This document shows, in pieces, positions 905 to 26,816 of a stretch of 64,000 nucleotides of DNA (position 1 is the stretch's first letter; every line of letters starts with the position of its first letter). Source of the DNA: Aminobacterium sp. MB27-C1 (GTDB lineage Bacteria > Synergistota > Synergistia > Synergistales > Aminobacteriaceae). The stretch spans positions 1,612,001-1,676,000 of the forward strand of contig NZ_CP133089.1 in assembly GCF_030908405.1 (NCBI RefSeq). Reading direction: 5' to 3'. The position numbers and the translations under genes were made by a program. The notes beneath the pieces were generated by a model. The model was not told where the DNA came from, ran no database searches, and saw only the letters and a list, made by a program, of their open reading frames with translations.

Positions 905-1939
905 ATGCGTGCAGCTCTCGTGGGCTTTGGAGGCGTCGGAAAAGCTTTTGTTGAACTTTTAATTAAAAAGAAAAATTTCTTAAACAGCATTGGATTGACG
1001 CTTACTCTTAAGTCAGTAATAAAAAGTAAAGAAGGTATTTACAATCCTTCTGGAATAAACCTCGAGTGTCTTCTTGAACATGTAAATAACGGAAGTGCAC
1101 TCGAAGATTTTCCTGCAGAAGGGACAAAAGAAGAAACTTTTGAAAGCCTTATTGCCAGACGCGATGTAGACCTGCTCATAGAAGTAACCCCAACCAACAA
1201 TCTTACTGGAGAACCTGGGCTAACTCACATAAAAAGAGCTCTTCAGAGAAGCATTCATGTTGTAACAGCAAATAAAGGACCAGTCTTGCTCGCTTATAAA
1301 GAATTAAATGCTCTAGCTGCACAAAATTACGTTCAATTTGGAGTAGGATGCACCACAGGAGGGGCTTTGCCCACTATTTACGCTGGGTGTATCGACCTTG
1401 CCGGAGCAAAGATTTTATCTATAGAAGGAATTTTGAATGGCACTAGTAATTATATTTTAAGTGAAATGCAAGAAAGAAACTGCACCTATGACGAGGCTCT
1501 TGCTCATGCCCAAGAAATGGGTATAGCAGAAACAGATCCATCTCTTGATGTAGAGGGCTGGGACACGGCTACAAAGCTTGTTATTCTTACAAATATTCTT
1601 ATGTGTAAGGAGTACAAATTAAAAGATGTTAGTGTAGAAGGAATAACGAAGGTTTCATTTAAAGATATAGATAATGCACGCCAAGAAGGAAAGCGCCTCA
1701 AACTTATAGGCAAAACACTAGGAGGATGTTCAGATCTTTCACTGAGTGTAAAAGTTGAGGCTCTGAATTCTGACCATCCCCTCTATAACGTAAATGGAAC
1801 AAATAAAGCTGTTTGTTACAAGACTGATAGTCTTGGTGATTTAACACTCATAGGTGGTGCCTCTGGAACTATTCCTGCAGCTGCATCTATTCTTCGAGAT
1901 ATTATAAATATCCATAAAGGATATCAATTTGCACATTAA
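905..1939 (+). CDS. Homoserine dehydrogenase (short form, no ACT domain)
   Basis: NAD(P)-dependent enzyme that reduces aspartate semialdehyde to homoserine in the Thr/Met branch of aspartate metabolism. At the N-terminus VGFGGVGKAF is the Rossmann dinucleotide loop. EVTPTN and the HVVTANKGP segment near residue 118 are family signatures, and NGTSNYILSEM is the substrate-domain motif. At 344 residues it ends after the catalytic domain, so it lacks the C-terminal ACT domain that gives threonine feedback in longer enzymes. A GGAGG site precedes the ATG. It is divergent from the YedE pair and stands alone, ending in a terminator. A paralogue lies at 25803, and this copy has no leader peptide. Confidence 0.9.
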   Translation: MRAALVGFGGVGKAFVELLIKKKNFLNSIGLTLTLKSVIKSKEGIYNPSGINLECLLEHVNNGSALEDFPAEGTKEETFESLIARRDVDLLIEVTPTNNLTGEPGLTHIKRALQRSIHVVTANKGPVLLAYKELNALAAQNYVQFGVGCTTGGALPTIYAGCIDLAGAKILSIEGILNGTSNYILSEMQERNCTYDEALAHAQEMGIAETDPSLDVEGWDTATKLVILTNILMCKEYKLKDVSVEGITKVSFKDIDNARQEGKRLKLIGKTLGGCSDLSLSVKVEALNSDHPLYNVNGTNKAVCYKTDSLGDLTLIGGASGTIPAAASILRDIINIHKGYQFAH

Positions 1940-17015: not shown

Positions 17016-17074
17016 ATTATTCTTCTCTGCTGATATCATGATAATGTAAGAAAATTTAAAATATTAAATAACGT

Positions 17075-17190
17075 TTTCCGAGTTGTATGACCTTCCTCTT
17101 TATTGAGATGGCCACCAACCGTCAGGGTATAGCTGGAAACGGCCATGCCTCCCATTCTTGGAAAGGAAAACCTATCCAGGGAGGGATGTA
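17075..17190 (+). promoter_or_regulatory. Molybdenum/tungsten cofactor riboswitch (moco/tuco motif)
   Basis: The leader carries GGCCACCA and then GCCTCCCATTCTTGGAAAGG, which match conserved segments of the moco RNA motif known from E. coli moaA. TGGCC (17109-17113) pairs with GGCCA (17141-17145). CCTCCC (17148-17153) pairs with GGGAGG (17179-17184), which is the Shine-Dalgarno of the next gene, so ligand binding could directly block translation. The downstream gene is a tungsten/molybdopterin enzyme, as expected. The 5' boundary is approximate, and I cannot tell the tungsten from the molybdenum variant. Confidence 0.82.
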
Positions 17191-25456: not shown

Positions 25457-25627
25457 GAAATTTTTTTCAATCAATAAAATATCCCAATTTCATCTTTTAC
25501 AAATACATATATCACCTGGACACATTACTTCCTCATACTTCAATAAATCAACGACATTCCAATTGACATGAATCAAACATTATGTTACCTTCTTTAAAAT
25601 TTTTAACGTCTGAAAGGAGGAGTATTC

Positions 25628-25711
25628 GTGTTTCAGTTACATAACAATAACAACGTAACAATAACTACTATGACGACATGCGGAACCCCTCCTGGAGTGG
25701 CGGGCGATTAG
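25628..25711 (+). CDS. Thr-rich leader peptide of the homoserine dehydrogenase operon
   Basis: A 27-codon frame starting GTG behind AAAGGAGG reads VFQLHNNNNV, then TITTMTTCGT, then PPGVAGD and stop. It has six Thr codons and one Ile within ten codons. It is directly followed by a strong terminator and then a homoserine dehydrogenase gene. Leader peptides rich in the end-product amino acid are the hallmark of transcription attenuation, as in the E. coli thr operon. The segment just after the Thr codons (GGAACCCC, 25682-25689) can pair with GGGGTCTCC in the terminator's 5' arm, giving the rival antiterminator. Confidence 0.82.
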   Translation: MFQLHNNNNVTITTMTTCGTPPGVAGD

Positions 25712-25733
25712 TTCGCTCTGCTTCGAAACTTCA

Positions 25734-25778
25734 GCCGGGGGTCTCCGCTTTATATGGAGATCCCCGGCTTTTTTATTT
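25734..25778 (+). terminator. Attenuator terminator in the homoserine dehydrogenase leader
   Basis: GCCGGGGGTCTCC (25734-25746) pairs with GGAGATCCCCGGC (25756-25768) around a 9-nt loop, followed by a T-rich tract. It lies between the leader peptide stop and the structural gene. Its 5' arm can instead pair with GGAACCCC in the leader, so ribosome position at the Thr codons should decide termination. Confidence 0.88.
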
Positions 25779-25802
25779 TACGATGAAAAGAGGAATGAAA
25801 TT

Positions 25803-26816
25803 ATGAAGGTTTGGGGACTATGTTTTATTGGCTTTGGCAATGTAGGTCAAGGACTTGCACGTATTTTAGTACGAGAAGAAGAAAACCTTTTTAGCCACTT
25901 TGGATTCCGTTTCAAGACAATAGCCGTAGTTACAAAAAGTAAGGGAAGCCGTGTTGATCCTAATGGGTTGTCACTATCCAAACTTCTTGATGAAATAAAC
26001 CATGATCAAACTCTCGGACCTTGTACTATTACCCCTGAAGAAACCGTTTGTCTACCTGAAGTAGATATTGTAATAGACGTAACTCCAACTAATTTAAAAA
26101 GCGGTGAACCAGGGCTGTCTGTTACAAAAAAAGCGTTACAAAGAGGACGTCACGTTGTTACAAGTAATAAAGGTCCGGCATCTTTAGCTTTGAAAGACCT
26201 TTTAAAAATTGCTTCTGAACATAAAAGCAAGTATCGTTTTGAAGGAACAGTTTTAAGTGGCACACCAGCAATCAATTTAGCGAGAGAATCCATGGCTGGA
26301 TGCCATATTACTGAGGTGCAAGGTATCGTTAACGGAACAACAAACTACATTCTTACACGCATGGAAGAAGGGCTGGAATATGACGATGCCCTTAAAGAAG
26401 CTCAAGCTCTCGGATATGCAGAAGCAAATCCTGAAGGTGATGTTGATGGCTGGGATGCTGCCGTAAAAGTTCAAATTATTGCGAGTGTCTTCATGGGAAA
26501 ATATATCTCCCTAAAAGATATATCCCGAGTGGGGATTTCTGGCTTGAAACGAAAAGATATAGAAAAAGCTCTTTCCCAAAACGAACGTATAAAGCTTGTA
26601 GCGAAAATAGTACAAAATTCGGGGCAGATTTTTGCCTCCGTCGCTCCTGTCTCCCTTCCCTTTTCCCATCCTCTATCGGGAGTTAATGGTGCAACAAACG
26701 CAATAACACTGACAACTGATAATCTTAAGGATGTAACAATAATAGGGCCTGGGGCGGGGAGAGAAGAGACAGGACAAGCTCTTCTTTCTGACATTATTTC
26801 GATTGTTACTCACTAA
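25803..26816 (+). CDS. Homoserine dehydrogenase, attenuator-controlled copy
   Basis: A 337-residue short homoserine dehydrogenase. FIGFGNVGQGLARIL is the dinucleotide loop, DVTPTN and RHVVTSNKGPASLALKDL carry the catalytic region, and NGTTNYILTRMEEG with EANPEGDVDGWDAAVKVQIIA form the substrate domain. There is no ACT domain, so the enzyme itself probably lacks threonine feedback. Control appears to come from the Thr leader and terminator just upstream. It is clearly related to the copy at 905-1939. The next gene, 110 nt downstream, may be cotranscribed. Confidence 0.92.
   Translation: MKVWGLCFIGFGNVGQGLARILVREEENLFSHFGFRFKTIAVVTKSKGSRVDPNGLSLSKLLDEINHDQTLGPCTITPEETVCLPEVDIVIDVTPTNLKSGEPGLSVTKKALQRGRHVVTSNKGPASLALKDLLKIASEHKSKYRFEGTVLSGTPAINLARESMAGCHITEVQGIVNGTTNYILTRMEEGLEYDDALKEAQALGYAEANPEGDVDGWDAAVKVQIIASVFMGKYISLKDISRVGISGLKRKDIEKALSQNERIKLVAKIVQNSGQIFASVAPVSLPFSHPLSGVNGATNAITLTTDNLKDVTIIGPGAGREETGQALLSDIISIVTH

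Follow-up and report, generated by a model that had tools for sequence, protein, structure and literature searches.

Does the short open reading frame that precedes a homoserine dehydrogenase (HSD) gene in this genome act as a threonine sensor, and is such a device an isolated case? According to the original prediction, which concerned one site in the window (the whole stretch of 64,000 nucleotides that was analysed), a GTG-initiated leader of 27 codons with six Thr codons and one Ile codon packed in ten is followed by a terminator and then by the HSD gene. This description agrees with the sequence. The ORF starts with GTG at 25628, ends with TAG and is preceded by a Shine-Dalgarno (SD) sequence, and its codons 11-20 (ACA ATA ACT ACT ATG ACG ACA TGC GGA ACC) contain the six Thr and the Ile; the order of leader, terminator and gene was recovered by sequence reading, a terminator scan and Pfam/NCBIfam assignments (Table 1). 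Upstream of the leader, TTGACA occupies the same position in all aligned relatives with upstream DNA; the -10 box is weak and a consensus promoter scan was not passed. The features by which an attenuator is recognized are present, namely a translatable SD-led ORF preceding the first gene, clustered codons for an amino acid whose synthesis involves the regulated gene, an intrinsic terminator between this ORF and the gene, and an alternative antiterminator that uses the 5' arm of the terminator and exhibits compensatory changes.

Table 1. Features of the leader region and of the two genes that follow it (window coordinates).
Feature	Position	Strand	Basis or remark
Putative promoter	25563..25591	+	TTGACA 25563-25568, 17-nt spacer, TACCTT 25586-25591
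Leader Shine-Dalgarno AAGGAGG	25614..25620	+	Sequence; SD also in close relatives; no-ribosome fold
Leader peptide ORF, MFQLHNNNNVTITTMTTCGTPPGVAGD and stop	25628..25711	+	Sequence; homologous leaders across the family
Control codon block T I T T M T T C G T	25658..25687	+	Sequence; same-genus ortholog; class statistics
Antiterminator strand 1, GGAACCCCUCCUGGAG	25682..25697	+	Duplex and hairpin folds; co-evolution with strand 2
Antiterminator apical stem, leader stop codon (25709-25711) in the loop	25698..25728	+	Close-relative folds; covariation
Antiterminator strand 2, CUUCAGCCGGGGGUCUCC	25729..25746	+	Overlaps the terminator 5' arm; duplex and state folds; co-evolution
Intrinsic terminator hairpin and T tail	25733..25775	+	Folding; terminator scan
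Homoserine dehydrogenase (HSD), regulated gene	25803..26816	+	Pfam PF00742, 1.7e-59; NCBIfam PRK06270 above cut-off
Gene X, 418 aa	26927..28183	+	Follows HSD here; own Met-type leaders in relatives

The terminator consists of a 15-bp hairpin with a T tail (25733-25769), a type of site of which the shuffled region gives 0.2, and the leader has a folding z-score of -4.8. The predicted pairing of GGAACCCC (25682-25689) with the terminator 5' arm was found as well, the pairing segment being longer than claimed and covering the whole of strand 1. Among the 14 strong terminator-like hairpins of the window, only the one at the HSD leader is closely preceded by the end of a short SD-led ORF; the corresponding antiterminator duplex reaches -22.6 kcal/mol compared to -12.4 for the next best of the 14. 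The further claim that a ribosome stalled for Thr-tRNA frees this segment and that a ribosome moving on covers it is supported by folding in three states, with ribosome footprints assumed from general knowledge. When the ribosome stalls at the first Thr codon and the RNA extends up to the terminator loop, the most favourable structure is the antiterminator (-39.5 kcal/mol); when it stands at the stop codon, it covers positions 25691-25721, and the terminator becomes the most favourable structure after synthesis of its 3' arm; when no ribosome is present and strand 2 is not yet made, strand 1 is predicted to pair with the leader SD region, CCUCCU being the partner of AAGGAGG. The equilibrium fold of the whole leader is the terminator state, and regulation must therefore be kinetic, as it is in known attenuators.

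A BLASTn search with positions 25560-25810 against 188 genomes of the phylum group retrieved a homologous leader directly before the HSD ortholog of one same-genus genome, and homologous leaders before aspartokinase, HSD or the ortholog of the next gene (gene X) in other genera. The Thr codons and the pairing segments, on whose conservation in close relatives the original prediction depended, are kept in the same-genus ortholog, which encodes a 68% identical HSD and exhibits the leader block VTTTTTMTTC and shares the pairing strands. All aligned relatives share the plan TTGACA, SD, ORF, control block, strand 1, stop, strand 2, terminator and gene, with GACCCUCCUGGAG and CUUCAGCCGGGGGUC as the close-relative consensus of strands 1 and 2, respectively. 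Their antiterminator comprises about 13-15 bp with a CC bulge and is capped by an apical stem whose loop holds the stop codon; the hairpin amounts to -27 to -35 kcal/mol among close relatives and the terminator to -20 to -32. Strand 1 undergoes GGAG/GAGG exchanges that retain the pairing to CUUC, and the apical stem presents two-sided changes among close relatives.

The leader also belongs to a larger family. A covariance model (R1) built with terminator pairs only gave full-model matches at many loci per genome, and these loci carry SD-led leaders with a stop codon at a near-constant place and a control block that varies with the gene. At E<=0.01, a second covariance model (R2) matched 146 of the 188 genomes, and no fewer than 150 of its matches reached 48 bits, compared to best scores of 31.8 and 31.2 bits in two control phyla searched with the same model (187 genomes each, 374 in total); E-values of such home-made models are approximate, differences in bit score are more reliable, and R2 matches below about 35 bits are not to be trusted. 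Since the control phyla reach at most 31.8 bits, the family is confined to Synergistota among the phyla compared. Most of the loci that were read came from the models, the first relatives having been obtained by plain BLAST. The HSD locus, which is part of the R1 training set but was first tied to its relatives by plain BLAST, exhibits a full-length model match, an SD-led ORF, a stop about 40 nt into the model and pairing of its cognate strands. About eight family members are present in the genome of the window. The original prediction of a thr-type attenuator holds, with the amendment that Thr is one of several specificities of a phylum-wide family. Second family-like matches of 35-41 bits were observed near other members, at L116:582-675 (-), L217:541-707 (+) and L109:461-551 (-).

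The control block corresponds to the gene that it precedes. Methionine genes are preceded by Met-type blocks (MMMCMC before metN, MMM-rich before metQ and metY) and branched-chain genes by VLVLII-type blocks (ilvN/ilvC/ilvD), LLLL (leuA) or VVVVV (panB); IIII precedes an ilvA-type dehydratase and IIIII a 2-oxoacid oxidoreductase gamma subunit. Aromatic blocks are found before a substrate-binding-protein-like gene (FFFSFFF) and a PaaK-like ligase (YYY or YYF), Thr blocks before HSD, and blocks of Thr and Met before aspartokinase. Genes were identified with NCBIfam, aspartokinase and some orthologs by direct sequence likeness. With one entry per gene class and genus, blocks of 12 codons contain 6.20 matched residues vs. 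3.08 after permutation (0 of 100,000 permutations as high), class labels having been given by gene family, yet with the leaders already seen when the list was drawn up. The mean numbers of residues out of 12 are 8.0 Val/Ile/Leu for branched-chain genes, 4.6 Met for methionine genes, 4.0 Thr for HSD, 2.4 Thr and 2.1 Met for aspartokinase, and 5.0 Phe/Tyr/Trp for aromatic-type genes, some of which (PaaK-like and SBP-like) owe the aromatic label to likeness; firm families underlie the branched-chain, Met and Thr classes.

Such mixed blocks bear on which amino acids are read at the HSD leader. The Thr block of aspartokinase leaders is reduced to MTMT or MMMMT, and the aspartate family as a whole therefore does not have Thr as its sole signal. 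A multivalent attenuator reading Thr, Ile and Met would be a refinement of the threonine attenuator, compatible with it, and is a possibility that we regard as rather unlikely: the HSD block includes a single Ile and a single Met codon, Met and Thr are mixed in aspartokinase leaders, and gene X leaders are Met-rich, but Thr accounts for six of the ten codons of the HSD block and for seven of the eight codons of the same-genus block TTTTTMTT, the eighth being Met.

The two antiterminator strands co-evolve, as established by an alignment-free permutation test in which strand 1 is paired either with its own strand 2 or with swapped partners and the energies are compared. Cognate pairing averaged -23.7 vs. 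-18.5 kcal/mol for swapped partners among 33 representatives below 75% identity, and -23.3 vs. -18.6 kcal/mol among 53 representatives below 70% identity, values that no swap equalled in 100,000 permutations each. When swaps were allowed only within a genome (51 members, 12 genomes), the means were -23.7 vs. -19.7 kcal/mol (0 of 20,000 permutations), which argues against base composition and lineage as an explanation. Column-wise pair counting on a 55-member alignment detected slight covariation, because the strand positions are shifted in register in that alignment. Anatomy, conservation, strand co-evolution and the family-wide match of control codons to gene function are established directly.

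These data also weigh on rival explanations. The C-terminal G-x-P-P-G of the leader peptide might act as a nascent-chain or polyproline stall sensing something other than tRNA charge, and PPG or PPE does occur in most leaders, that of HSD included. We nevertheless hold this to be improbable, as the residues drift (SSP, DPS, SLS, VLP, GPYW, FLSG) while base pairing persists, and as the nucleotides are accounted for by strand 1 pairing; PPG stalling as a necessary, conserved principle was rejected on the same grounds, although a pause at the leader Pro-Pro could still aid timing. That an ordinary intrinsic terminator merely follows an unrelated small ORF, with a coincidental Thr run and pairing, is highly improbable: terminators are common, but the anatomy is kept across the phylum, the strands co-evolve within genomes, the codon block tracks the gene and no similar terminator is found elsewhere in the window.

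Equally hard to credit is a riboswitch or T-box-like RNA that would bind a metabolite or tRNA directly, the ORF being incidental; T-box and SAM elements are indeed present in these genomes, but no Rfam family matches the locus at its gathering score, no aptamer-like domain is seen, and the gene-dependent part is a codon block inside an SD-led ORF. Compared to Rfam at E<=10, the HSD leader produced chance-level matches only. The T-box model RF00230 has no match at the HSD locus, the T-boxes of this genome being located elsewhere, and T-boxes and SAM riboswitches are present at other places in Synergistota genomes; the idea that the leader family replaces T-boxes in the phylum was rejected accordingly. 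A molybdenum cofactor riboswitch (RF01055, 67 bits) is found at 17064-17184 of the window.

The mechanism invoked by the original prediction, that of E. coli thr, fits in its mode of working. Membership of the Thr_leader RNA family does not hold: RF00506 exceeds its curated cut-off (55 bits) in none of the 188 genomes and in one of 14 control genomes, and has no match up to E=10 at the HSD locus. Like the E. coli thrL leader, the HSD leader combines a Thr/Ile codon block, a short leader peptide, alternative antiterminator and terminator structures and a downstream aspartate-pathway gene. Unlike in thrL, strand 1 is contained in the ORF, behind the block, the apical loop of the antiterminator holds the stop codon, and the scaffold also serves many other operons. 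Classic attenuators are known as separate families, one per operon, most of them operon-specific devices described from Proteobacteria and Actinobacteria, whereas the Synergistota scaffold is common to Thr, Met, branched-chain and aromatic operons. It shares ribosome-mediated attenuation and control codons fitting the operon with the his, leu, ilv, trp and phe leaders of Proteobacteria and the ilvB and similar leaders of Actinobacteria (PMC1262725, PMC11857589, PMC10272879). The cysS uORF motif uORFC-8-2 of Rhodobacterales is likewise a conserved uORF with control codons for which ribosome-mediated attenuation was proposed (PMC8632094), but it concerns one gene in one order and has a different structure. 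In Synergistetes, regulation by HisR was described (PMC9413887), and the main text of an intergenic scan of Thermovirga lienii presents one SLH motif (PMC6429828). No earlier description of the Synergistota attenuator family was found in the main texts of the open-access papers searched. T-boxes bind uncharged tRNA directly. The Synergistota leaders resemble them (RF00230) in that a single scaffold, widespread in a phylum, accepts exchangeable amino-acid specifiers, and differ from them in that the specifier is a run of translated codons.

Taken as a whole, the region is very probably a ribosome-mediated transcription attenuator that controls HSD, and probably gene X too, by the charge of tRNA-Thr; that the leader is transcribed, that ribosomes stall on it and in which direction it responds are parts of the model that we infer by comparison. 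Transcription would start near 25598 and a ribosome would load on the leader ORF at once. Under scarcity of Thr-tRNA, the ribosome would stall on the Thr block, leaving strand 1 free to pair with strand 2, and the terminator 5' arm would be held so that RNA polymerase continues into the HSD gene. With plentiful Thr-tRNA, the ribosome would advance beyond strand 1 as far as the apical-loop stop codon, where it would mask part of strand 1 and the apical stem, allowing the terminator to form. In the absence of translation, strand 1 may pair with the leader SD, a predicted interaction that would favour termination.

The genome encodes two more HSD paralogs (window 905-1939 and G000:C1:1919814-1920833), which are 37-40% identical to the regulated HSD, and a search of named genomes for close relatives of the latter retrieved distant phyla only. 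Gene X is well conserved across the phylum and has no relative in Pfam, NCBIfam or PDB; its single-sequence structure prediction was uninformative (pLDDT 37). Because the family leaders that precede it at 12 loci have mostly Met-rich control blocks (MMMC, MMMR), gene X is predicted to serve methionine metabolism. Membrane proteins or transporters at G000:C1:53615, 764368 and 848314 are found behind FFFGFWY, YFYFWF and LLLLV-type leaders, which predicts aromatic or leucine-type substrates. Behind branched-chain leaders without an evident enzyme, a tRNA gene was sought and none was found; a tiny conserved ORF is present instead. This ORF of 39-75 aa ends with (W/F)RGPFEG(Y/L/V)R-stop, the motif being doubled in some genera, and was observed at L103 (G000:C1:2166598-2166697, -) and 21 other loci (e.g., L105, L109, L114, L116, L130, L137, L163). 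It has no Pfam or NCBIfam match and is predicted to be a small protein under branched-chain control.

What seems new is a single phylum-wide scaffold with exchangeable codon blocks, methionine-sensing versions included. We consider it likely that a homologous scaffold was duplicated over operons throughout the phylum and re-specified by swaps of its codon block, leading to about eight sensors in one genome, among which ribosome-based sensors of methionine with Met/Cys codons. If true, this reading suggests that gene X encodes a new enzyme related to methionine and that the tiny protein with the RGPFEGYR end is controlled by branched-chain amino acids. Many amino-acid operons across Synergistota appear to rely on one scaffold, as a translated counterpart of the T-box idea, and the codon block of this scaffold would provide a simple rule for assigning an amino-acid specificity to uncharacterised transporters and enzymes of the phylum, gene X being methionine-related and several transporters branched-chain or aromatic under this rule.
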